Assembly (NCBI GenBank): GCA_004001285.1
Contig: AP018697.1
Location: forward strand, 806,001-870,000
DNA: 64,000 bases
DNA from: Arthrobacter sp. MN05-02
GTDB lineage: Bacteria; Actinomycetota; Actinomycetes; Actinomycetales; Micrococcaceae
Direction: 5' to 3'
Of the stretch, positions 24,993 through 41,161 are shown piece after piece (the first letter of the stretch is position 1; each line of letters begins with the position of its first letter). The position numbers and the translations under genes were made by a program. The notes beneath the pieces are model-generated. The model was given only the letters and a program-made list of their open reading frames with translations. It had not been told where the DNA came from and did not search any database.

Positions 24993-26232
24993 ATGACCAT
25001 CGACACCGCCGTCTTCGACCTCTCCGACGCCGACACCACCGCGATGCACGAGCTGTACCAGCACCTCCACGCCCACCCCGAGCTCTCCATGCAGGAGACG
25101 CACACGGCGGCGTTCATCCTCGAGAAACTGAACCACCTCGGCCTGGAGACCTTTATGTGCGGGGGGCACCGGCGTCGTCGGGATCCTGCGCAACGGCGAC
25201 GGCCCCGTGGTCGGCTACCGCGCCGACACGGACGGCCTGCCCATCGCCGAGGACACCGGCCTCGCCTACGCCAGCACGACGGCGGGCACCCTCGCCGACG
25301 GCACCGATGTCCCCGTGATGCACGGCTGCGGCCACGACACCCACATGACCGTGGGCCTCACCGCCGCCCAGCTGCTGGTCGAGAGCCGCGAGGCGTGGTC
25401 CGGCACGGTGGTCTTCATCTTCCAGCCCGGCGAGGAGACCGGCGAGGGCGCGGAGGCGATGGTCGAGGACGGCCTGTGGGACAAAGCGCCGAAGCCGTCC
25501 ATCATCTACGGACAGCATGTCTGGCCGGGACGCGCCGGCACCGTGAACATCAGCAAGGGCACGGCCATGGCGATGGCCGATTCCTGGAAGGTCACCGTGC
25601 ACGGCAAGCAGGCGCACGGTTCGCAGCCGGAGCAGTCGATCGACCCGATCGTGCTCGGCGCCCACATGGTGGTGCGCATCCAGACGATCGTCTCGCGCGA
25701 GGTGCACCCCATGAAGTCCGCGGTCGTCACGATCGGCACCTTCCACGGTGGGCTCAAGGAGAACATCATCCCGGCGTCCGCGGAGTTCACCCTCCTCAAC
25801 GTGCGGACGTTCGACGTCGACGTGCGCGAGCGCGTCCTCGGCTCGCTGCGGCGGATCATCAGCGCGGAGGCCGCGGCGTCGGGGGCGCCGGAGCCGGTGA
25901 TCGAGGAGATCACCAACTTCCCCCAGTGCTACAACGACCCTGCCTCGACGGAGGATCTGATGGCCGTTCTCGGCGAGGTGCTGGGGGAGGACGCCGTCAT
26001 CGAGGCCCCGCCGGTGATGGGCAGCGAGGACTTCGGGCTCCTGGCCGAGGCCATCGGCGTCCCGAGCGTCTACTGGTTCTTCGGCGGACACCCGCAGGAG
26101 CTGCTCGACGGCGACGACCCCGTGCCGGGCAACCACTCGCCGTACTTCGCGCCGGCGATCGAGCCGACCCTCTCCACCGGAGTCCGGGCCGCCATGACGG
26201 CCCTGCTGTCGAAGGTCGGGACCACCGCGTGA
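24993..26232 (+). pseudogene. M20D amidohydrolase (hippurate/IAA-amino acid hydrolase type), frameshifted
   Basis: The frame starting at ATG 24993 (HAHPELSMQETHTAAFIL) leaves the family after FMCGG; the rest continues one frame over from TGVVGILRNGDGPVVGYRADTDGLP, split by one extra G in the G6 run at 25161-25166. Joined, about 412 residues carry MHGCGHDTHM (metal Cys, His, His), FQPGEETGEGA (catalytic Glu) and GSEDFGLL with a late His. M20D enzymes cleave N-acyl, N-aroyl or indole-acetyl amino acids. The rest of the frame is perfectly kept, so a sequencing indel is likelier than decay. Its stop overlaps the amidase start (GTGA). Confidence 0.8.
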
Positions 26233-27638
26233 CCAGTGCGCTCTCCGACCTGTCCGCCGTCGAACTCACAGGGGCCATCCGCCGTCGGGAGGTGTCCGCA
26301 CGGGAGGCGCTCGAGGCGCACTTCGATCGCATCGACGCCGTCAACGGTTCCATCAACGCCGTCGTCACCGAGGACCGCGAGGGCGCCGCGGCGCTCGCGG
26401 AGGCCGCCGACGAGCTGACGGCGTCGAGCGCCGACCTCCCGCCGCTGCACGGTCTGCCGATGACGCACAAGGACACGCACAACACCAAGGGCCTGCGCAC
26501 GACGCAGGGCTCGTCGGTGTTCAAGGATTTCGTGCCGACGTTCGACGACCTGATCATCGGCCGGCTGAAGAGCGCCGGTGTGGTGACGACGGGCAAGACG
26601 AATGTGCCGGAGTTCGCCGCCGGGTCGCACACCTTCAACGATGTGTTCGGCACGACGGTCAATCCGTACGACACCACCCGCAGTGCCGGCGGCAGCAGCG
26701 GGGGTGTGGCGGCATCGATCGCCGCCCGCATCCAGCCGCTGGGCGACGGCAGCGACATGGGTGGCTCGCTGCGCATCCCCGCGTCGTTCTGCAACGTGGT
26801 CGGGTACCGGCCGTCGATCGGCGTCGTCCCCGCCGTGCCGACGCGCAACGCCTGGGCGTGGCTCGGCCGCAACGGGCTGATGGCTCGTGATGTCGAGGAC
26901 ATCGCCCTCGGGATGACGGCGATCGCCGGTGCCGACCCAACTGTTCCGTACGCCTACCCCGTGTCCGGCTCCTTCGCAGCCCCGCTGCAGCGGGACCTGA
27001 CCGGGGTGCGCATCGGCTGGTCACCCGATTTCGGGGTGGGCGTACCGGTGGACCGCGAGGTACTGCGGGTCCTCGAGGGACAGCTGCAGGTCTTCGCCGA
27101 CCTCGGTGCGGTCGTCGAGGAGGCCGCGCCGGACCTGCGGGACGCCGACCAGGTGTTCGGCACGACGCGCGCCTTCGATTTCGTGCTCGGCCTCGGTGAG
27201 CTCGTGCGGAAGCACGGCGATGTGATCAAACCCGAGATCCGCTGGAACGTGGAGCAGGGGCTGCAGCTCACAGCGCAGGACATGGTCGATGCCGCCCTCG
27301 CCCGGACCCGGCTCGACACGAGCGTGCGGCGCTACTTCGGGAAGTACGACGTCTTCGCGAGTCCGACGGCGCAGGTGCTGCCGTTCGACGCCAGCGAGCG
27401 GTATCCGACGTCGGTCAACGGCGTGGAGTTCGAGACGTACCTGGACTGGATGCGTTCGGCCTGCCTGATCTCGGCCACCGGGTTGCCCGCGGTGTCGGTG
27501 CCGGCCGGCTTCAGCGAGGACGGCCTGCCGGTCGGGCTGCAACTCGCGATGCCGCACGGCAGTGACGTCGAGCTGCTGCAGGTCACGTATGCGTTCGAGC
27601 AGGCGACGGGGTGGGCGAAGCGGACGCCGGCGCTGTAG
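26229..27638 (+). CDS. Amidase-signature family amidase
   Basis: 469 residues, GTG start overlapping the upstream stop. The amidase-signature triad is visible: Lys in LPMTHKDTHNTKG, the first Ser in the GSDMGGSLRIPA loop and the nucleophile-supporting SAGGSSGGVAASIAA block. It hydrolyses a carboxamide to acid plus ammonia in the cytoplasm. It ends the LacI-controlled operon, so the pathway contains at least three amide-bond hydrolases with different specificities. GSDMGG instead of the common GTDxGG is a mild variation. Convergent with a NERD gene. Confidence 0.88.
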   Translation: MTSALSDLSAVELTGAIRRREVSAREALEAHFDRIDAVNGSINAVVTEDREGAAALAEAADELTASSADLPPLHGLPMTHKDTHNTKGLRTTQGSSVFKDFVPTFDDLIIGRLKSAGVVTTGKTNVPEFAAGSHTFNDVFGTTVNPYDTTRSAGGSSGGVAASIAARIQPLGDGSDMGGSLRIPASFCNVVGYRPSIGVVPAVPTRNAWAWLGRNGLMARDVEDIALGMTAIAGADPTVPYAYPVSGSFAAPLQRDLTGVRIGWSPDFGVGVPVDREVLRVLEGQLQVFADLGAVVEEAAPDLRDADQVFGTTRAFDFVLGLGELVRKHGDVIKPEIRWNVEQGLQLTAQDMVDAALARTRLDTSVRRYFGKYDVFASPTAQVLPFDASERYPTSVNGVEFETYLDWMRSACLISATGLPAVSVPAGFSEDGLPVGLQLAMPHGSDVELLQVTYAFEQATGWAKRTPAL

Positions 27639-29741: not shown

Positions 29742-29994
29742 GGTCCGCTTCCCGACGCCATGCGATTCCCCCCGAGCTGAGACCCGGGCGAGCTGAGCCT
29801 CGCCCGGGTAGGACGAATCTATCGGGCGATGTGCAGTGATCGAGCCGGTCAGCGCGCCGATTGCCGGCAGGATTGCCACAGCATTTCCGCACCGGCACGG
29901 GCACCACGACGGAGAGCGCACCGTCGGGGCCATTCCCGTATCGGGCGGACCGCCCGACCGGGAGGCGACGGGACGCCGTTCCTGGAAAGCCGGC
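29742..29994. other. 253-base spacer with weak hairpin
   Basis: Holds the promoter of the NERD gene and, at 29941-29957, a 6-bp hairpin (TCGGGC with GCCCGA) 38 bases beyond the stop of the upstream iron operon, a weak terminator candidate. No gene seen. Confidence 0.35.
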
Positions 29995-32517
29995 TCAGGC
30001 GTTGACCGGTTCCGGTGCGACCGCTTCCCTGCGCCGCCGCCACTGCCCGAACGCGATCGGCAACCATCGGCACAGAGCCCAGTACGCGACCCCGACGGGC
30101 AGGCAGCCCACCACTGCAGCCACCTGACCGAGGGGGAGCAGGACGGGATAGACGAGCCAGTGCGTGAGGTAGATGTACAGTGACGCGGCAGCGAGCCAAC
30201 CCGTTGCGCGGCGCAGGACCGAGGGCACGGGCAGCGCCGGTACCCAGGTGACCAGCAGCAGGCCCACCACGATGGTCGCCTCGCGGAGCGGATGGTCGAA
30301 GAAGCCCGGCACGGTCAGCACGGCGAGGGCGGACACCAGCAGGCGACGCCGGGTGCTATCCGCCCGTGCGACGGCCCATCCCAGCATGAAGAGCCAGAAG
30401 ACGGGAAGGGGCTTGGGCAGACCGGGATCGACGATGTCGTACCGGCTGAGCAGCGTGACCGCCAGCAGGCCCAGGGCGAAGCCGAACGGCGCGCGGCGCT
30501 CGAGCCGGTCCACCCAGGGAACGGCCAGCAGGGCCATGACGGCGACGAGCACGTAGACGAGCATCTCCACGAACCAGAAGTGCCACTCGCTGGTGACCTC
30601 CTGGGGCCCCACCATGCCGTTGAGCAGGAAGATGTTGGCGATGCTGTAGTTGTCGGTGAGGACGTAGGCCACGGTGATGAAGGCCACCGACGGGACGACG
30701 ATCCTCGCGAAGCTCCGGGCCTGGCGTCGCAGGCGAACGGTCCGGCTCCCGGCCAGCTGGAACCGCGCGAAGTTGAAACCGGCGATGACGAACAGCAGAT
30801 GCGCGGTGTGGAACGTGAACAGCTCGACGTGGGCGGCCACGATGCAGACCGTCGCCACGGCCCGCAGCACGATCGACGGTTCGAGGAAGGAGACGAGCCT
30901 CCGGCCCCGCGGCTCGCGGCGGCCGGACAGTTCGCCCACCGTCCGAAGGTGCCAGCCGCTGGGAAGCCGGCCCAGGGCCGCCTCCAGCCGGACGGAGAGG
31001 GCCACGTAGGACAGCGAATCGCCGTCGAGCGTGACGAAGGTATCCGCAGCTCCGACGTCGGCGCGGTCCAGGCACTCGGCGAAGATGCGTGGCACATCGG
31101 CCGGCCCTTCCCGGTCGGCGCCCGTGTCCGCGGATGCCGCAGGTCCCGGGACCGCCAGGCCGAGGACGGCCGGGTAGTCGATCTTGCCCGTGGCCAGCCG
31201 GGGCAGGTGTTCCACCGCGCGCAATCCGACCGAGCCTCGGGGCAGCCCGAGATCGGCGGCGAGGACTTTCGCGAGGAGGTCCGTGTCATGCTCGCCCTCG
31301 ACCGCGATCACCAGGCCGTCGTCGTCGGAACCGGCGACGGCGGCCACGGCACCCAGACCGGAGAGGATCCGCTCGACCTGCCCGAGGTCCACCCGCAGGC
31401 CTGCGATCTTCACGAAGCGGCTGCGCCGGCCCACCACCTCGTAGAGGCCGTTGGCATGCCGGCGTGCGAGGTCACCGGTTCGCAGCTCGTGCACCGTGCG
31501 CCCCAGCGCGAGGTCTCCGGGGCCCTCCGCATAGCCCAGCATGACGTTCGGACCCGAGTACACCAGTTCCCCGTGCGGCAGGCCGTCCACCGGATCGATC
31601 CGGAATGCACCACCCGGTACCGGCACACCGATGGTGTCCGGGTGCTCGGCCGCCAGGTCCGGTGGCAGGTAGGCCATGCGCGCAGTGGCCTCCGTGGCTC
31701 CGTACATGACGAAGAGGTCCCAGCCCCGGCGCTGGCCGGTCTCCGCCCACGAGCGGACCTTTTCCGGGGCGAGGCGTCCGCCCGCCTGCGTGACGTAGCG
31801 CAGGTCGGGCAGGTCCATCTCCGCGAAACCCACCCGGTCCAGCAGGTCGAAGCTGTAGGGGACGGCGGCGAACGAGGTGGCACCGCGCTCGCGGAAGACG
31901 TCCCAGAAACAGGGGTCCACGACGGACAGGTCGGTGAGCACGAGGCCGGCCCCGCGGATGAGATGGCTGTTCACGACGGAGAGGCCGTAGCAGTAGCTGA
32001 GCGGGAGGGTGGTGGCGGCGCGGTCATCGGGTCCGATGCCCAGGTATGCGGCGATCGACCGGGCATTTTCCTCGAGGTTCGTCAGGGACAGCCGCACGAG
32101 CTTCGGCGAACCGGTCGACCCCGACGTGCTGAGCAGCAGCGCGAGGTCGGGATGGAGGTCGTGGCGGGTGCCGGGCCACCGCTCGTCGAGGTCGAGCACG
32201 CCGTCGCCGGTCCGGAGCACGACGTCGGGATCGTAGGCATCGACGAGTGAATCGAGGGCTGCAGGCTTGTCCGCCGGCACCAGGAGGAGCGGATGACCGG
32301 CCCTGATCGCCGCCAGGTAGGCGACGAGTGACTCCAGGTCGTTGCGTGCGGCGAGCAGGACGAGGCGTCGTTCCGTGCCGAGGCGTGCCGCGACGTCGTC
32401 CACTCGCCCCGCGAGCTCCCGGTAGGAGAGCGTGCCGTCGGCGGTGAGGACGGCCGGCCGGTCGCCGTGGCGGGCGAGGTCCGTGAAGGCCCGGGAGAGG
32501 TCGTGTTCAAGGGTCAT
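29995..32517 (-). CDS. Adenylation domain - carrier domain - acyltransferase 3 fusion
   Basis: 840 residues from the ATG at 32517, in an ATGA overlap with the ABC ATPase gene. Residues 1-450 are an AMP-forming ligase: STSGSTGSPK at 130-139 (ATP loop), YGATEA at 272-277, LRTGDL at 345-350, the hinge Gly-Leu-Arg after FVKIAGLRVD, and TGKIDYP at 443-449 with the catalytic Lys445. Residues 475-530 are a small carrier domain with LDGDSLSYV, Ser501 being the phosphopantetheine site. Residues 545-825 hold about nine to ten helices of an acyltransferase 3 (OafA-like) with AAHVELF (His563). An acyl or aminoacyl group would be activated, loaded on its own carrier and moved to an acceptor at the membrane. 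Substrate unknown. Confidence 0.82.
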   Translation of the reverse strand: MTLEHDLSRAFTDLARHGDRPAVLTADGTLSYRELAGRVDDVAARLGTERRLVLLAARNDLESLVAYLAAIRAGHPLLLVPADKPAALDSLVDAYDPDVVLRTGDGVLDLDERWPGTRHDLHPDLALLLSTSGSTGSPKLVRLSLTNLEENARSIAAYLGIGPDDRAATTLPLSYCYGLSVVNSHLIRGAGLVLTDLSVVDPCFWDVFRERGATSFAAVPYSFDLLDRVGFAEMDLPDLRYVTQAGGRLAPEKVRSWAETGQRRGWDLFVMYGATEATARMAYLPPDLAAEHPDTIGVPVPGGAFRIDPVDGLPHGELVYSGPNVMLGYAEGPGDLALGRTVHELRTGDLARRHANGLYEVVGRRSRFVKIAGLRVDLGQVERILSGLGAVAAVAGSDDDGLVIAVEGEHDTDLLAKVLAADLGLPRGSVGLRAVEHLPRLATGKIDYPAVLGLAVPGPAASADTGADREGPADVPRIFAECLDRADVGAADTFVTLDGDSLSYVALSVRLEAALGRLPSGWHLRTVGELSGRREPRGRRLVSFLEPSIVLRAVATVCIVAAHVELFTFHTAHLLFVIAGFNFARFQLAGSRTVRLRRQARSFARIVVPSVAFITVAYVLTDNYSIANIFLLNGMVGPQEVTSEWHFWFVEMLVYVLVAVMALLAVPWVDRLERRAPFGFALGLLAVTLLSRYDIVDPGLPKPLPVFWLFMLGWAVARADSTRRRLLVSALAVLTVPGFFDHPLREATIVVGLLLVTWVPALPVPSVLRRATGWLAAASLYIYLTHWLVYPVLLPLGQVAAVVGCLPVGVAYWALCRWLPIAFGQWRRRREAVAPEPVNA

Positions 32518-33653
32518 CGGGTTCCGTCGATTCTTCCGGTGGTGCCGGGCGGTGCTGTCACTGCCTGGTCGCCCACGAGCAGCGTGGGGGAGGTTCCGGC
32601 GGCCACGCTCACTGCCACGGCCGTACCCACGGGATAGCGCACGTCGTGGGGCTGCCAGGACCGGAGGGTCCGTCCCGAGGCAAGCCGTACGTGGTGCAGG
32701 ACGAACGCGCCGTGGTACTCCACGGACGAGACCCGGGCGGTGGCGTCCGCGGCCGGGCGCAGGGCCACCTCGTGGGGCCGGAGGACGACGTCGACGTCGA
32801 CGTCGCTGTCCGCCCAGCCCGGAACGGTGGAGACGATCCCGATCTCGCACGTCAGCAAAGCCCGGTGCACGTGCGCGGGAAGGAAGTCGGCGTCGCCCAT
32901 GAACGAGGCGACGAAACGGGTGGCCGGCCGCTCGAAGACCTTCTCCGGGACATCGGCCTGTTCGATCACGCCGTCGTGCATGACGACCACACGTGACCCG
33001 ACGGACAGCGCCTCGGTCTGGTCGTGGGTGACGAGGACACCGGTGGTACCGGTGTCCTGCAGCGTCGCCACGGTGTCACGCCGGACCTGCGCGCGCAACG
33101 ATTCGTCGAGGCTGGAGAACGGCTCGTCGAGGAGCACGACGGCGGGCCGCGGCGCCAGTGCGCGTGCCAGGGCTACGCGCTGCTGCTCGCCCCCCGAGAG
33201 CTCGTGCGGGTACCGGTCCGCGAGGTGCACGAGCTGGACGACGTCCAGGAGGTCACCGACGCGCTTCCGGCGCTCGCTCCGGGGCAACCGGCCGAGGCCG
33301 AACTCGACGTTGCGGGCGACCGTCAGGTGCGGGAAGAGCGCATGGTCCTGGAACACGAGGCCTACCCGGCGGCGCTCCGGATTCACGAAGCGGTTCGCAT
33401 CCGAGACGATATCGCCGGCGACGCTGATCCGGCCGGAGTCGGCCCGCTCCAGACCGGCCACGAGCCGCAGCGTCGTCGACTTGCCGCACCCCGAGGGACC
33501 GATCAGTGTCACCAGCTCGCCCGCGGGAACGGAGAGGTCCAGCGCCTCGACGCCCCGGGCCGATCGGTAGCGCTTCGTGACCGCCTCGAGGCTGAGCGCC
33601 GGAGCGCTCCCGGTCGCGGGGCCGGGAGGATCGATCGTCACCTGTGCCGTCAC
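32514..33653 (-). CDS. Ferric-type ABC transporter ATP-binding protein
   Basis: 379 residues, GTG start in a GTGA overlap with the permease. Walker A GPSGCGKST at 52-60, Q-loop VFQDHALFPHLTVARNV, signature LSGGEQQRVALARAL, Walker B VVLLDEPFSSLD and switch VTHDQTEAL. The C-terminal 130 residues form a TOBE-like regulatory domain (VDVVLRPHEVALRP), as in FbpC/PotA-type ATPases. It powers the two-domain permease encoded just upstream. Four genes in a row overlap by four bases, so the subunits and the downstream fusion enzyme should be made together. Confidence 0.9.
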   Translation of the reverse strand: MTAQVTIDPPGPATGSAPALSLEAVTKRYRSARGVEALDLSVPAGELVTLIGPSGCGKSTTLRLVAGLERADSGRISVAGDIVSDANRFVNPERRRVGLVFQDHALFPHLTVARNVEFGLGRLPRSERRKRVGDLLDVVQLVHLADRYPHELSGGEQQRVALARALAPRPAVVLLDEPFSSLDESLRAQVRRDTVATLQDTGTTGVLVTHDQTEALSVGSRVVVMHDGVIEQADVPEKVFERPATRFVASFMGDADFLPAHVHRALLTCEIGIVSTVPGWADSDVDVDVVLRPHEVALRPAADATARVSSVEYHGAFVLHHVRLASGRTLRSWQPHDVRYPVGTAVAVSVAAGTSPTLLVGDQAVTAPPGTTGRIDGTR

Positions 33654-35350
33654 TGCCGTACCTTTCCGGATGCCGTCCGCTGTGCCTCGTCCTGACGGGC
33701 GGAACGGACGAGGACGAAGACGGGGATGATGGCGACCGCCACGATGACCAGCGCCGGGAGCGAGGCCTTCTCCCAGAAGTTCTCGCGCGCGAGCTCGTAC
33801 ACCCACACGGACGCCGTCGTGAACCCGAAGGGCCTCAGGAGCAGGACGATCGGCAGTTCCTTCACGGCGTCGATCACCACCAGCATGAGTGCCACGGCCA
33901 CCCCTGGCCGGGCGAGGAGCAGATGCACCCGACTCAGGATGCGGCGTGGGCCGGCGCCGAGGCTCAGGGCGGAGAAGGTGACGGTCGGGGGGATCTTCTC
34001 GAGGCTCGCACCGACGGACTGGTAGGCAGGGGCGAGGAACCGGATGACATAGGCGTAGAGGATGCCGACCACCGAACCGGTCACGATCAACCCGGTACCC
34101 CCCGGGACGCCGGCGCGTTCCAGCGCGTCATCGGCCAGGGCGAACGACAACAGGACGCCGATCCCCACGACGGCACCGGGGACGGCATAACCGAACGTCG
34201 TCAGCTGGGCCGCGAAGGAGACGAGACGCCCACCGCCCATGCGGATCGCATGGCCGACGGACAGGGAGAGGACCACGCAGGCCACGGCGGTGACCACCGC
34301 CACCACCAGGCTGTTGGCCAGGTACTCGCCGAAGCGCGGGTCGGCGAGGAAGGACGCATCGGACAGCGCCTGCCCGGCAGCCCAGAGCAGGAGCTGCCCC
34401 ACCGGGATGAGGAACCCGGCGGACAGTGCCGTGAGGCACAGGGCCGTGGCGACCCAGCCACGCGCTCCACGCAGCCTTTCGGGCTGGAATCCCTGCCTCC
34501 GGCCGCCGTGCTGGTGGTAACGGGCTCGGCCCCGCAGCGACCTCTCCGCGACCAGGACGGCCACCGCGAACAACAGGACCAGCACGGCGAGCTGCGTCGC
34601 GGCGTGGAAGTCGAACGTGCCCTTCCACACCAGGTAGACCCCCACCGAGACGGTCTGCACATTGAAGTACTGCACGGTCGCGAAGTCGGTCAGCGTCTCC
34701 ATCATCACCAGCGCCAGTCCCGCGGCCAGAGACGGACGGGCGAGCGGCAGCACCACGCGCCGTAGCGCCTGCCCGCGGGTGGCACCCAGGGTGCGGGCGG
34801 CGTCGTACGTCCCGGAGGACTGCTCGATCAGCGCCGACCGCGCCAGCAGGTAGACGTAGGGGTAGAGGGACAGCGACATCACGAGGATCGCAGCGGGCAG
34901 CGAGCGGACCTCGGGAACCCATACGTCCGTTCCGAACACGGCCCGCAGGAACGACTGCACGGGTCCGGCCACGTCGAAGACGGAGAGGAAGACGAACCCG
35001 AGGACATAGGCCGGTATCGCCAGCGGCAGGACGAGCAGCCACACCAGCAGGCCCCGCAGCGGGAAGCGGTAGGCGGTCACAAGCCAGGCAAGCCCGCCGC
35101 CCACCAGCAGGGATCCGGCGCCCACTCCCAGCATCAGGGCCACGGTGGTGAGCACCATGCGCGCCAGGTCCCGCGGAGGCGCGGAATCGCCGATACTTCC
35201 GAGACCGTCGACGACGACCGCCAGCACGGGGGTGGCGACGACGACGGCGACGGTGACGACCAGCGTCGACCACGCGGGCCGGCCGACACCGTACGTCCGG
35301 AAGCGCCGCCGGGAAGACCGTGGCTCGGCGAGCGCGGCCGTATCGGTCAC
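33650..35350 (-). CDS. Ferric-type ABC transporter permease (FbpB-like, two-domain)
   Basis: 566 residues, GTG start overlapping the binding-protein stop (GTGA). Twelve helices in two halves, each with an EAA loop: YDAARTLGATRGQALRRVVLPLARP in the first, and a weaker SLGAGPRRILSRVHLLLARPG in the second. This duplicated form is typical of FbpB/SfuB permeases for Fe(III), and of some thiamine permeases. Together with the binding protein below and the iron box upstream, iron is the favoured substrate. Confidence 0.88.
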   Translation of the reverse strand: MTDTAALAEPRSSRRRFRTYGVGRPAWSTLVVTVAVVVATPVLAVVVDGLGSIGDSAPPRDLARMVLTTVALMLGVGAGSLLVGGGLAWLVTAYRFPLRGLLVWLLVLPLAIPAYVLGFVFLSVFDVAGPVQSFLRAVFGTDVWVPEVRSLPAAILVMSLSLYPYVYLLARSALIEQSSGTYDAARTLGATRGQALRRVVLPLARPSLAAGLALVMMETLTDFATVQYFNVQTVSVGVYLVWKGTFDFHAATQLAVLVLLFAVAVLVAERSLRGRARYHQHGGRRQGFQPERLRGARGWVATALCLTALSAGFLIPVGQLLLWAAGQALSDASFLADPRFGEYLANSLVVAVVTAVACVVLSLSVGHAIRMGGGRLVSFAAQLTTFGYAVPGAVVGIGVLLSFALADDALERAGVPGGTGLIVTGSVVGILYAYVIRFLAPAYQSVGASLEKIPPTVTFSALSLGAGPRRILSRVHLLLARPGVAVALMLVVIDAVKELPIVLLLRPFGFTTASVWVYELARENFWEKASLPALVIVAVAIIPVFVLVRSARQDEAQRTASGKVRQ

Positions 35351-36372
35351 TGGTATCCGGCCTCGGCGAGCAGGTCGACGGCGTCGGCATTGAGCGTCCC
35401 GTAGGCCTCGGCGTTGAGCGGCATGCGCGTGAAGTTCCCGAAGGCCGCGATGACCGGCTCGGGCCGCACGGTCGGGTTGACGGGGAACTCGTGGTTCGCG
35501 TCGACGAACGCGTTCTGCCCGTCGGTGGCGAGCCATTCGAGAAGTCGCCGGGCGTCGTCGGGGTTGTCGGCACCGTCCACCACGCCGGCACCGGAGATGT
35601 TCACGTGCGTCACGGCGCCCTCCTGGCTCGCCCAGAACAGGTCGACGTCCAGGTCGGGCTTCTCCTCGAGGGTCCGCGCGAGATAGTAGTGGTTGTTGAT
35701 ACCGACGTCGCACGTCCCGGCGTCGATGGCCTCGAGCAGCAGCACGTCGTTGCTCATGATGGCGACGTCGTTGGCCACCCATCCCCGAACGATCTCGAGC
35801 GCGCGGTCCCGGCCGTGGAGATCGATCAGGCCGGCCACGAGCGACTGCGTGTAGGCGGAGGTCGCGTCCCGCATGCAAAGGCGGCCCTTCCACTGCGGGT
35901 CCGCGAGACCTGCGTAGGTGTCTGCGGCGTCGAAGTCCGCCGGGTCCACGGCGTCCGGGTTGTAGGTGACGGTCCGTGCGCGCAGGGCGAGCCCGTACCA
36001 GCGGCCCTCCGCGTCACGGAGGTCCTCGGGCACGGCCTCGCGGAGCACGGGGGAGTCGATCGCGGCGAGTTCGTCCTGGCGTGCACCGTTCCAGAGGTTG
36101 CCCGCATCGACGGTCATGAAGACGTCCGCCGGGGTGTCCTCGCCCTCGGCCTTGAGCCGTTCGAGGAGTTCGGCGTCGTCGCCACTGATGAACTCGACGG
36201 TGATACCCGTCTCGTCGGTGAACTGCCCGAAGGCGCCCTCGAGATCGTAGTGGCGCGCCGAGTAGATCTGGAGGTCCGCGGACTGGGAGCCGATGGCACT
36301 GCAGCCGGTGAGTACCGACGTCAGGGCGGTCAGCCCGACAAGGGCGGACGTGAGGAGTGGGCGAGGGTGCAT
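35347..36372 (-). CDS. Fe(III) ABC transporter substrate-binding lipoprotein (FbpA-like)
   Basis: 341 residues. Lipobox LTGC with Cys24 anchors it outside the membrane. The mature part begins QIYSARHYDLEGAF, with His41-Tyr42, and later has INNHYYLARTL with Tyr229-Tyr230, the adjacent tyrosine pair that holds Fe(III) in FbpA-type proteins. ADVFMTVDAGNLW is the usual anion/ligand loop. First gene of the operon and preceded, 62 bases upstream, by an iron box, so it should be expressed when iron is scarce. Confidence 0.9.
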   Translation of the reverse strand: MHPRPLLTSALVGLTALTSVLTGCSAIGSQSADLQIYSARHYDLEGAFGQFTDETGITVEFISGDDAELLERLKAEGEDTPADVFMTVDAGNLWNGARQDELAAIDSPVLREAVPEDLRDAEGRWYGLALRARTVTYNPDAVDPADFDAADTYAGLADPQWKGRLCMRDATSAYTQSLVAGLIDLHGRDRALEIVRGWVANDVAIMSNDVLLLEAIDAGTCDVGINNHYYLARTLEEKPDLDVDLFWASQEGAVTHVNISGAGVVDGADNPDDARRLLEWLATDGQNAFVDANHEFPVNPTVRPEPVIAAFGNFTRMPLNAEAYGTLNADAVDLLAEAGYQ

Positions 36373-36433
36373 CCGGTTCTCTTCTCAGGCGGTGGGGGTA
36401 GCCCGGCGAGCGCACGGCAATCGGCGGGCAAAG

Positions 36434-36452
36434 CAAGGCTAGCCTAACTTAA
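36434..36452. promoter_or_regulatory. DtxR/IdeR iron box
   Basis: CAAGGCTAGCCTAACTTAA agrees with the DtxR/IdeR consensus TTAGGTTAGCCTAACCTAA at 15 of 19 positions, with an intact GCTAGCCTAAC core. It lies upstream of the ferric transporter operon. Confidence 0.75.
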
Positions 36453-36546: not shown

Positions 36547-37407
36547 CTAACTCAGGATGTCCTTCGTGCTGAACCGCCCGTAGGCCAGCGTCCCGAACGC
36601 CGCGATGTAGCCGAGCTGCAGCAGGGCGTTGTCCGCGAAGGAGTTCCAGACGATCGGCTGCCGCAGCAGATCTGCGAACCCCAGCCAGTAGTTGGTGAAC
36701 AGCCAGGGGTGCAGCCATTCGAGCTGCGGCAGGGCGCCGAGGATCTGTGCGACGGCGGCGAGCGCGGCCGTCGCAGCCATCGCGCCGACCGGGATGGTGG
36801 TGAGCGTCGAGATGAACAGCCCGATCGCGCTGAGCCCCATCAGGGACAGCGTCACGTAGAGCGCGAGCAGCAGCAACCGCACGAAGTAGCCGGGGATGCC
36901 CACGGTGTCGCCGGACAGCAGTGTCACCGGCCCGACCGGGAACAGCAGCCCCCCGATGATGGCGCCCGTGACGACGACGGTCAGGGTCGCCACGAGGCAG
37001 AACAGCGCCGCCCCCGCATACTTCACGAGTAGCAGGCGGATGCGCCCGGCGGGCGCCACGAGCAGGTACCGCAGCGTCCCGAGGTTCGCCTCGCCCGCGA
37101 TGGTGTCACCGGCGACGACGCCGATGGTCAGCGGCAGGAACAGGGGGATGGCCACGGTGAGCGCGGTCAGCGAGACGAACAGGCCGTTCTGTGTGATGCT
37201 GTCCAGGAACGCGGGTCCGCGCCCGCTCCCGGAGCCGTCGGATGAGACCCGGACGACGACGGCGATGAGGATCGGGATCAGCGCCAGTGCGCCGATCATC
37301 GCCCAGGTGCGGAGCCTGCGGAACAGCACCGAGATCTCCGAGAGCAGGAGCGTGAGCCCGAGGGAGCCCCCAGCACGGGGGCGGGCTACTACGGATTCAG
37401 CCGGCAA
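36547..37407 (-). CDS. ABC-2 type transporter permease
   Basis: 286 residues. The frame opens at a TTG (37407) overlapping the ATPase end and preceded by GGAGAGGGG; no closer ATG or GTG gives the first helix, which starts after LGLTLLLSEISVLFRRLRTWAM. Six helices are visible at about 30-50, 78-100, 125-150, 165-190, 198-220 and 255-275. GEANLGTLRYLLVAPAGRIRLLLVKY is the coupling segment typical of NatB/YhaP-type ABC-2 exporters. With the ATPase it would export an unknown molecule; the next gene upstream encodes a LolA-like lipoprotein-carrier fold, which hints at the cell envelope. Confidence 0.82.
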   Translation of the reverse strand: MPAESVVARPRAGGSLGLTLLLSEISVLFRRLRTWAMIGALALIPILIAVVVRVSSDGSGSGRGPAFLDSITQNGLFVSLTALTVAIPLFLPLTIGVVAGDTIAGEANLGTLRYLLVAPAGRIRLLLVKYAGAALFCLVATLTVVVTGAIIGGLLFPVGPVTLLSGDTVGIPGYFVRLLLLALYVTLSLMGLSAIGLFISTLTTIPVGAMAATAALAAVAQILGALPQLEWLHPWLFTNYWLGFADLLRQPIVWNSFADNALLQLGYIAAFGTLAYGRFSTKDILS

Positions 37408-38397
37408 CGTCGAACCCCTCTCCGGTGAGTGCGACGAAGCGGTCTTCGAGCGAGGCGCCGCTGGCCTCGAAGCCGCGCACCCGCACGTCGGCCCGTACCA
37501 GGGCGGCGTTGACGGTCTCGGGCTGGAGGCCGGGCACGGACAGTTCGGCGGTGATGACGTCGTCTCGCCCGTGGGGCTCGGGGGGTGAGCCCCAGCCCTG
37601 TGAGGACGCGATGGGCGTCGGCGTAGTCGGGCGTGGTGACCCGCACGCGGGAGGTGCCCTCGGACCGGAGGTCGTCGAGCGAGCCCTGCGCCACGAGGCG
37701 GCCCGCACTCATGACGGCGATCCCCGTGCACATCTGCTCCACCTCGGCGAGGAGGTGGCTGGAGACGAAGATGGTGGTGCCGTCGTCGGACAGGGACCGG
37801 ATGAGGCCGCGGACCTCGCGGGTACCCTGCGGGTCGAGGCCGTTGGTGGGCTCGTCGAGGATCAGCAGGTCCCGCGGTGCGAGTAGCGCGTTGGCGATGC
37901 CGAGGCGCTGCTTCATGCCCAGGGAGTAGGCGTGCGCGCGCTTCCTGGCCGCATGGCCGAGGCCCACGCGGTCGAGGGCGGCGTCCACGCGCCTGTCGCG
38001 TGTGGCGGGATCGGTGTGGCGGTCCGCGGCGTCGAAGCGCTGGAGGTTCGCCCGACCCGAGAGGAACGGATAGATGGCGGGACCCTCGACGAGGGCTCCG
38101 ACGCGCGGCAGGACGGCGCGCGCGTCCTTCGGCATGTCGCCGTCGAGCAGGCGGATCTCTCCGCTGGACGCGGCGGCCAGCCCGAGGAGCATGCGGATGG
38201 TGGTGGTCTTCCCCGAGCCGTTGGGGCCGAGGAAGCCGAAGACGGATCCCCCGTGGGACGGCGAGGTCGACGCCGTTGACGGCCTTCTGCTTGCCGAAGA
38301 CCTTGGTCAGGCCGTGCGTCTCGATCGCGAACTCGCCGGTGCTTCCCGGCGGACCCGCACCGTCGGTGCGGGTCCGCGGTGGTACTTCGTGGATCAC
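37397..38397 (-). pseudogene. ABC-2 exporter ATPase, two homopolymer frameshifts
   Basis: GTG start at 38397 overlapping the upstream stop (GTGA). The N-terminus IETHGLTKVFGKQKAVNGVDL is followed by a shift at the C5 run 38248-38252 (one extra base); then GPNGSGKTTTIRM (Walker A), YSLGMKQRLGIANALL (signature) and LLILDEPTNGLDPQG (Walker B) continue one frame over. A second extra base in the G6 run 37580-37585 moves the C-terminal domain EPHGRDDVITAELS into a third frame, ending just inside the permease gene. Joined, it is a normal 333-residue drug/lipid-exporter type ATPase. Both shifts look like base-call errors. Confidence 0.82.
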
Positions 38398-39821: not shown

Positions 39822-40310
39822 ATGGATGCACGTAGTTCGTTGTCGGTGGAGCAGCGCGAGGCCGCTATAGCGTTGTTCGAGAAGGGCATCGCGGATATGG
39901 CGACAGCCAGTTCACTGGGTGTGCATCGTAAGCCGGTGGGTCGTTTGTATGAGCGGTGGAAAATCCGTGGTCGAGGAGCGCTGGTGGCTAAGCCGAAACA
40001 GGTGTACTCGTTCGAGGTCAAGCTCGCCCTGGTGGAGCGGTTCATCGCGGGTGAGACGTCACTGAACCTCGCGACGGAAGCCGGTCTGTCCTCACCTCTG
40101 GTCCTCCAGAAATGGGTCAGGGAGTATCGCCGCGACGGCGCCGACGGGTTGCGGCCCAAACCCAAAGGCAGACCCAGGAGCCCCAAGTCCTCACCGCCTG
40201 CGGAGGTGTCCGAGCTGGAGCGGTTGCGGCGCGAGAACGAACTGTTACGGGCGGAGGTCGCGTACCTGGGAAAATTACGGGCCTTGAGCGCGCAGGAACC
40301 ACGACGGTGA
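39822..40310 (+). CDS. IS3-family transposase OrfA
   Basis: 162 residues. Helix-turn-helix pairs at about 8-45 (REAAIALFEKGIADMATASSLGVHRKPVGRLYERW) and 60-105 (FEVKLALVERFIAGETSLNLATEAGLSSPLVLQKW), with a C-terminal leucine-type coiled coil (SELERLRRENELLRAEVAYL) used for multimerisation. Two HTH blocks are typical of the IS150 group. It binds the IS ends. The stop overlaps the orfB start in GTGA. Confidence 0.88.
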   Translation: MDARSSLSVEQREAAIALFEKGIADMATASSLGVHRKPVGRLYERWKIRGRGALVAKPKQVYSFEVKLALVERFIAGETSLNLATEAGLSSPLVLQKWVREYRRDGADGLRPKPKGRPRSPKSSPPAEVSELERLRRENELLRAEVAYLGKLRALSAQEPRR

Positions 40311-41161
40311 AGGTGCAGGCCGTCATCGCCCTCAAGGCCGACTTCCCGCTCCCGGTGCTGCTCCAGGTCACCGGCCTGGCCCGGTCCACGTTCTTCTACC
40401 ACCAGGCCCGACTCCTGGCACCGGATCCGCGCCAACAGCTCAAGACCGCGATCACCGAGGTCTTCGAGACGAACCACGGACGGTACGGGCACCGCCGCAT
40501 CCACACCATCCTCACCCGGCAGGGGTGGACCGTGGCGAAGAAGACCGTGCTGAAGCTGATGCGATCACTGCGCCTGGCCTGTCAGGTCCGGCGGAGGAAG
40601 CGTTACAGCTCCTACCGGGGTGAGCAGGGCAGGATTGCGGCGAACGTGTTGGACCGGGACTTCGCAGCGGACGCGCCGAACCAGAAGTGGGTCACCGATG
40701 TGACCGAGTTCAGCGTCGGCGACCGGAAGCTCTACTTCTCACCGGTCATGGACCTCTTCGACCGGCAGATCATCTCCTACACGGTGGGCACCTCGCCGAA
40801 CCTCGGGCTGACCAACACATCCCTACGAGAAGCCCTGGCAACGCTCGAGGACGGACAGAAACCGTTGGTGCACTCGGACCAGGGATTCCAATACCAGCAC
40901 GCCTCCTGGCGGCGGCTACTCCAGAACGCCGGCGCGAACCAATCGATGTCCCGCAAGGGCAACTGCTACGACAACGCCGTCATCGAAAACTTCTTCGGAC
41001 ACCTCAAGGAAGAACTGTTCCACCGCGTCCGCTTCATCAGCACCGACGCCCTCACCGAAGCCCTGCACGAGTACATCCACTGGTACAACACCGAAAGAAT
41101 CTCCACAAAGCTCGAGGGCCTGAGCCCGGTGCAATACCGTGCTCAGACCCTCGCGGCCTAA
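40307..41161 (+). CDS. IS3-family transposase OrfB (DDE catalytic subunit)
   Basis: 284 residues from the GTG in a GTGA overlap. rve integrase core: first Asp in KWVTDVTEFSV, second Asp in LVHSDQGFQYQ, catalytic Glu in NAVIENFFGHLKEE, in the usual D-x(about 60)-D-x35-E spacing; an HTH_21 domain (GRYGHRRIHTILTRQGW) precedes it. OrfB is in the -1 frame relative to OrfA, so an OrfAB fusion by frameshift near GGGAAAATTACGG (about 40268-40280) is possible, though no classical A6G slippery run is present; coupled initiation is the alternative. Confidence 0.9.
   Translation: MKVQAVIALKADFPLPVLLQVTGLARSTFFYHQARLLAPDPRQQLKTAITEVFETNHGRYGHRRIHTILTRQGWTVAKKTVLKLMRSLRLACQVRRRKRYSSYRGEQGRIAANVLDRDFAADAPNQKWVTDVTEFSVGDRKLYFSPVMDLFDRQIISYTVGTSPNLGLTNTSLREALATLEDGQKPLVHSDQGFQYQHASWRRLLQNAGANQSMSRKGNCYDNAVIENFFGHLKEELFHRVRFISTDALTEALHEYIHWYNTERISTKLEGLSPVQYRAQTLAA

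Follow-up and report, generated by a model that had tools for sequence, protein, structure and literature searches.

Why would a bacterium couple the translation of a ferric iron importer to that of an enzyme that activates and transfers acyl groups? This question is raised by a four-gene operon in a window of 64,000 nucleotides of the genome of Arthrobacter sp. MN05-02 (GenBank assembly GCA_004001285.1, contig AP018697.1, positions 806,001 to 870,000 of the forward strand; positions below are those of the window). The operon lies on the minus strand, from 36372 to 29995, and encodes a substrate-binding protein (SBP), a permease and an ATPase of an ATP-binding cassette (ABC) importer and, as the last gene, a fusion enzyme made of an adenylation, a carrier and an acyltransferase-3 domain. 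Neighbouring genes overlap by 4 bases each, with stop/start overlaps that read, in gene order, GTGA, GTGA and ATGA; the tight coupling of all four behind a single iron box, described in a first-pass annotation of the sequence, is confirmed by both the coordinates and the box scan. That annotation had further suggested that the acylating enzyme works in iron uptake. Based on the comparison of sequences, which included gene order, iron box, domain content, catalytic residues, the predicted fold of the membrane domain and the linkage to ferric importers, the fusion almost certainly belongs to iron acquisition. Indeed, many related bacteria keep fusion and importer together in several layouts, thus making it very likely that the fusion helps iron capture in a way not yet described.

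The ferric nature of the importer is best seen in its SBP, whose closest relative in the Protein Data Bank (PDB) is the Fe(3+)-binding SBP 7li0 (E 3.6e-83), and in the PDB ranking 28 distinct sequences, nearly all of them named iron-binding, stand above the first phosphonate SBP. In particular, the His-Tyr and Tyr-Tyr of the iron transport protein 2pt1, positions that we take to be iron ligands, have aligned counterparts in His41-Tyr42 and Tyr229-Tyr230, and the presence of a lipobox leads to the protein being called a lipoprotein. Both the homology to solved Fe(III)-binding proteins and the conservation of the iron ligands place it in the class of FutA, SfuA and FbpA, and SBP, permease and ATPase would together form an Fe(III) importer. 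The curated models matched by the ABC parts differ in the substrate they name, and those shown are without exception under their cut-off. All three proteins are of the ferric importer kind, as in FutABC, SfuABC and FbpABC; unlike those systems, the operon is coupled to an acyl-activating, acyl-transferring enzyme.

The pairing was followed over 92 non-duplicate loci (1 from this genome, 33 from relatives, 12 from a phylum sample, 20 from a mycobacterial sample and 26 from named genomes), leaving out nine named-genome loci that duplicate relatives, L068 (counted once as G014), and contig-end-cut L110 and L069. In 54 of the 92, the fusion has a ferric SBP gene no more than 7 kb away, a share lowered by counting as solitary L046, L067, L118, L119 and L132, which are truncated, broken or adenylation-part-only; a few links may also be missed, since most flanks extend over about 6 kb and some over 2-4 kb. 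Linked or boxed loci amount to 75 of 92. The outcome named beforehand as a refutation, that most homologues of the fusion lie apart from iron transport genes, was thus put to these loci, and the link held. When each partner SBP was assigned to whichever of four query SBPs it matched best, three of these queries having been compared with solved structures and found to match ferric-binding proteins, FutA-like partners were found mainly in Micrococcaceae, SfuA/YfuA-like ones (query L054) mainly in mycobacteria, Nocardioidaceae and Pseudonocardia, and FbpA-like ones (query L050) mainly in Streptomyces, Actinomadura and Actinotalea.

The geometry of the pairing varies as well. The SBP gene is upstream on the same strand in 46 linked loci, divergent in 5, downstream on the same strand in 2 and downstream on the opposite strand in 1. 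Fusion and ABC genes diverge over a box-bearing region in Streptomyces, Actinomadura and Pseudonocardia. A separate box precedes the fusion, itself placed behind the ABC genes, in Actinotalea, in one Nocardioidaceae bacterium (18/19) and in A. echini with two close relatives. An SfuA-type ABC stands beside the fusion in 14 of the 20 sampled mycobacterial loci, which come from 17 of 78 positive genomes, chosen among low-contig ones, and include the identical L171 and L187. In two mycobacterial genomes there are two fusions, and every one of them is accompanied by an SfuA-type ABC of its own (L171/L172 in G535 and L187/L188 in G677), and the four-gene module was there duplicated or acquired as a unit. 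In a FastTree phylogeny of 86 fusions (without L133, L046, L067, L118, L119 and L132, and with long-branch warnings), the nine layouts need 14 changes versus a shuffle mean of 44.5; layout is thus largely inherited within groups, yet has been re-made or lost several times. This bears on a rival explanation, namely that the fusion stands beside the ABC genes by ancestry or chance and has no role in iron. Although inheritance of the layout within Arthrobacter and within mycobacteria, as seen in the tree, speaks for this explanation, it is at odds with the several layouts, with the three SBP clades and with the iron boxes described below, on solitary copies and overall, which make it highly improbable.

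Co-occurrence points in the same direction. Among 147 relatives, a fusion match (E 1e-40) was found in 34, including 21 of the 38 genomes of the same genus, with G132 matching on the adenylation part only. All 34 fusion-positive genomes hold an SBP relative (E 1e-15 or better), versus 34 of the 113 fusion-negative ones, a comparison in which 48 weaker SBP matches (27-37% identical) count as SBP relatives and are not individually classed ferric, and whose Fisher values ignore shared ancestry. The close-type SBP (at least 54% identity) occurs in 20 of the 147 genomes, every one fusion-positive; in the draft genomes G097 and G103 it lies on a separate contig from the fusion. Linkage, boxes and co-occurrence thus support the earlier suggestion of a role in iron uptake. 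Further afield, a fusion match was found in 17 of 396 genomes sampled over the phylum (E 1e-80) and, within a single genus, in 78 of 198 genomes; this genus is called mycobacterial as one of its genomes matches L054 of Mycolicibacterium sp. P1-18 at 100%. The named-genome collection gave 42 loci: 37 belong to the family, truncated copies included, and five (L070-L074) were dropped from the family counts because only the adenylation part matched.

Solitary copies have no pathway common to all among their neighbours, as judged by eye. One of them, L128 (G097), has a 17/19 iron box and adjoins an opposite-strand phosphopantetheinyl transferase (AASDHPPT_N 1.8e-6) and a Peripla_BP_2 SBP gene. In the mycobacterial solitary loci L177, L178, L180, L181 and L183, the downstream opposite-strand genes appear by eye to be CoA-transferase-like and/or acyl-CoA thioesterase-like, which may hint at the source of the acyl groups or may simply reflect common ancestry.

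The second line of evidence is the iron box, which lies 62-80 bp upstream of the SBP start and matches on the minus strand 15 of the 19 positions of the DtxR/IdeR-type consensus that we presume for scoring. With a slightly different pattern and up to three mismatches, it is the sole match in the window, with 0 matches in 100 shuffles, and genome-wide the two best matches are two overlapping registers of this same box. A box is similarly placed upstream of orthologous operons. When the best site of at least 13/19 upstream of operon or fusion was scored across loci, a consensus and threshold chosen after a first look at the data, a box was found in 68 of the 92 loci versus the 0.74 that dinucleotide-shuffled versions of these stretches would lead one to expect; it is present in 47 of the 54 linked and in 21 of the 38 solitary loci. 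Three of seven other sites in the genome were inspected and all three precede genes of siderophore-uptake type (Peripla_BP_2, FecCD or their ATPase), and two DtxR-family matches score above cut-off in this genome; the motif thus fits an iron regulon here. The operon has the 19-bp operator of the IdeR/DtxR regulon, and it may be subject to iron-dependent repression by a DtxR-type repressor.

What the enzyme itself does can be read in part from its domains. AMP-binding (1.2e-42) is matched strongly, Acyl_transf_3 (PF01757) just above cut-off (2e-8) and PP-binding below it (0.006); family-wide, at E 0.01, the three are found in 46, 45 and 44 of 46 members, respectively. In a residue alignment of 51 sequences (the window and 50 others; duplicates, truncated copies, L042 and L043 were left out), the catalytic residues are invariant. 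Indeed, the core motifs T-S-G-(S/T)-T and TGD, the catalytic Lys (K445) and the carrier Ser (S501) are kept in all 51, which places the fusion among the adenylation-carrier enzymes of the nonribosomal peptide synthetase (NRPS)-like kind. The R-X10-H motif (R552 and H563, again in 51 of 51) and the Pfam model likewise place the last domain among acyltransferase-3 proteins. In a predicted model of the fusion (mean pLDDT 86.9, pTM 0.52), the membrane domain has a fold like that of human HGSNAT (VIA comparison), that is, a transmembrane acyltransferase fold; a PDB sequence search with this domain gave a single match at E 0.098, which is not credible. The motif is shared with OafA, OatA, TmaT and HGSNAT, and it is described for acyltransferase-3 in a section of PMC9558356. 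According to another section of that paper, known acyltransferase-3 proteins are thought to use acyl-CoA, not carrier-bound acyl groups, and the fusion differs from them in carrying its own carrier domain. It probably performs transmembrane acyl transfer. In L045/L133 (Arthrobacter sp. H41/G015), the middle of the fusion, about residues 244-540, is present twice, partly out of frame, which looks like either a tandemly duplicated stretch, made of the end of the adenylation domain plus the carrier, or a mistake in the assembly.

The substrate of the adenylation domain was approached through its closest solved structures, which include VinN, oxalyl-CoA synthetase, MatB and MenE at about 21-28% identity; in structure comparison, aryl- and fatty-acyl ligases tie with these four in Z. 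Of the other candidates, mycobactin-like fatty-acid tailoring was rejected on the MbtM model (58 bits vs a cut-off of 621), and a salicylate- or dihydroxybenzoate-type aryl substrate on the absence of the EntE-type His-Asn-Tyr motif, which we take to mark aryl acids, a weak argument. The nearest curated ligase model, TIGR03098, scores far below its cut-off (144.7 vs 592 bits). At the position of Asp230 of VinN, which binds the amino group, the fusion has Cys176 (Cys in 49 and Ser in 2 of the 51 sequences), so that the Asp of amino-acid adenylation enzymes including DltA (GrsA 235/VinN 230) is absent and an amino-acid substrate was rejected. Arg280, which all 51 sequences share, occupies the position of VinN Arg331. 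Arg331 and Ser299 of VinN are proposed, in part of PMC7756342, to recognise the alpha-carboxyl group of the substrate, and a part of PMC11253843 describes the loop. Arg280 is a lead only; the substrate may be a dicarboxylic acid or another acid of like acidity.

From these elements a mechanism can be sketched. At low iron, the DtxR-type repressor would leave the box and all four genes would be expressed; the adenylation domain would activate a small carboxylic acid without an amino group and load it onto the fusion's own carrier, from which the acyltransferase-3 domain would transfer the acyl group to an acceptor outside the cytoplasm. The acylated product would then keep Fe(III) close to the membrane for the lipoprotein to hand to the importer. 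Activation, carrier loading and transmembrane transfer follow from the domain anatomy, and we infer the repression by iron, the substrate class, the direction of transfer, the acceptor and the binding of iron by the product. That the acyl product itself binds iron at the surface and serves the importer is an evenly balanced proposition. In its full form the proposal is a new class of iron acquisition, distinct from both classical siderophores and plain ferric import: a single transmembrane acyltransferase that loads itself would attach carboxylate-bearing acyl groups to the outer surface, and these would trap iron for a ferric ABC importer. This specific form is tentative and doubtful. If true, such a class would occur widely but unevenly among actinobacteria and would account for their uptake of iron without siderophores.

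The first-pass annotation had considered either a small iron ligand or an alteration of surface lipids or glycans. The role in iron stood; as to the choice between the two, the HGSNAT-like predicted fold favours an extracytoplasmic acceptor. The first option corresponds to a rival explanation in which the fusion acylates a soluble acceptor to give a minimal siderophore, which the ferric SBP would read directly or strip of its iron. A diffusible product fits solitary fusions with their own iron box, and the box and the ABC linkage are also in line with it, as is the search for NRPS-independent siderophore synthesis, the one siderophore pathway looked for, which gave no IucA/IucC synthetase in this one genome and was positive in the controls E. 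coli and Haloferax volcanii. However, FutA/FbpA-type SBPs bind Fe(III) or iron with small anions and siderophore uptake usually depends on Peripla_BP_2/FecCD systems, which this genome also has; a membrane acyltransferase-3 would be unusual for a soluble product, and by eye no exporter gene recurs beside the fusion. A secreted ligand is thus considered unlikely.

Several observations weigh against the proposed surface trap or against parts of it. Neither ferric SBP link nor box was found at 17 of the 92 loci, including two Nocardia loci, K. dechangensis and several distant copies, and the Nocardia and several distant copies lie among unrelated genes. The fusion is missing from 17 of the 38 same-genus genomes, and in G601, a third mycobacterial genome with two fusions, both copies are unlinked and unboxed. 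Genome-wide, the loose pattern that singled out this box in the window gave 15 matches versus 23 for its reversed control; since the control matches more often, the count in a single genome proves little and the case for the box rests on the comparison across loci. Foldseek with the membrane domain by itself gave no match below E 0.9. At the position of Arg280, seven other aligned ligases have Arg in one (L002, from this genome), another residue in five and a gap in one, and Arg280 was consequently rejected as a marker unique to the fusion family. Finally, acylation of the envelope might be of use during iron starvation even if it binds no iron: the acyl group would alter a surface glycan or lipid (charge, permeability or defence), and the operon would be shared as both functions are wanted at low iron. 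The unlinked and unboxed copies are compatible with such remodelling, and acyltransferase-3 proteins usually modify surface sugars, as stated in a portion of PMC9558356; the pairing with three ferric importer clades in four orientations and the 34/34 co-occurrence argue instead for direct cooperation, and remodelling that holds no iron is accordingly rated as quite unlikely.

Among known systems, the proposed activation and transfer most call to mind Dlt, in which the adenylation enzyme DltA loads the carrier DltC and the membrane acyltransferase DltB, of the MBOAT family, D-alanylates teichoic acids. The order from adenylation to carrier to membrane acyltransferase to extracytoplasmic acceptor, a polymer in Dlt, is the same (DltA and DltC are treated in a section of PMC13231372). 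The fusion differs in being a single polypeptide with an acyltransferase-3 rather than an MBOAT domain, in having Cys176 instead of the amino-binding Asp and in its iron box; on the evidence of its sequence, the system would resemble Dlt-type envelope acylation joined to ferric import, yet is not a Dlt system. The nearest experiment comes from M. smegmatis (Mycobacterium smegmatis), where the SfuB-like ABC msmeg_3633-3635-3636 is needed for low-iron growth without siderophores, as given in part of PMC6684656; in a section of PMC10597346, msmeg_3635 and 3636 are listed as upregulated under citrate. This ABC is of the class found beside the fusion in the 14 mycobacterial loci, and it differs in being described, again in part of PMC6684656, as a three-gene operon. 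That no system of this make-up had been described, as first supposed, agrees with targeted searches of the full-text literature, in which no description of such a fusion or of its pairing with ferric importers was found (subscription papers are mostly outside its coverage); the accessible part of PMC12161575, on the DmdR1 regulon, yielded nothing on the fusion-importer system. If the proposed mechanism is right, an enzyme-made, possibly surface-bound iron ligand would be added to the known routes of iron capture, and there would be a gene and a candidate chemistry for how soil actinobacteria and environmental mycobacteria take up iron without siderophores. In addition, an acyltransferase-3 with its own fused carrier would offer a direct handle on which molecule donates the acyl groups that acyltransferase-3 enzymes use.

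Table 1. Coordinates of the operon, its iron box, the domains of the fusion enzyme and the hairpin 3' of it
Feature	Position	Strand	Basis
Iron box (DtxR/IdeR/DmdR-type operator)	36434..36452	-	15/19 consensus positions
Ferric-iron binding lipoprotein, FutA-like	35347..36372	-	lipobox LTGC, residues 21-24; relative 7li0
Permease, putative ferric ABC importer	33650..35350	-	BPD_transp_1 2.5e-16; GTGA overlap with SBP gene
ATPase, putative ferric ABC importer	32514..33653	-	ABC_tran 4e-35, TOBE_2 8.1e-9; GTGA overlap
Fusion enzyme, 840 aa, adenylation - carrier - acyltransferase-3	29995..32517	-	domain matches
Adenylation domain, residues 12-450	31168..32484	-	Lys445, Arg375 and Arg280 invariant; Cys176
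Carrier domain, residues 470-533	30919..31110	-	presumed phosphopantetheine Ser501 invariant, 51/51
Acyltransferase-3 membrane domain, residues 540-833	30019..30900	-	Arg552-X10-His563 invariant, 51/51
G+C-rich hairpin 3' of fusion gene, possible terminator without T run	29782..29809	-	centroid -24.9 kcal/mol, z -2.67

As for the surroundings of the operon (Table 1), a scan with a terminator consensus found none, and a sigma-70 scan and a search for inverted repeats of 12 or more found nothing. A NERD-domain gene comes after the hairpin. Upstream of the operon and on the same strand, with the iron-box region in between, 36547-38397 (-) encodes an ABC-2 type exporter permease (ABC2_membrane_4) and, by eye, its ATPase. 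Farther away, a long open reading frame (ORF) at 24993-27638 (+) has by eye an M20 peptidase-like start, another character past about 57 residues and an amidase end; one raw frame of 25100-26350 holds several stops, and the ORF looks like an intact amidase gene behind a peptidase gene with a frame break. On the other side, at 39822-41161 (+), a helix-turn-helix ORF and the next ORF resemble an IS-type transposase pair, as judged by eye and from the translation of the first only.

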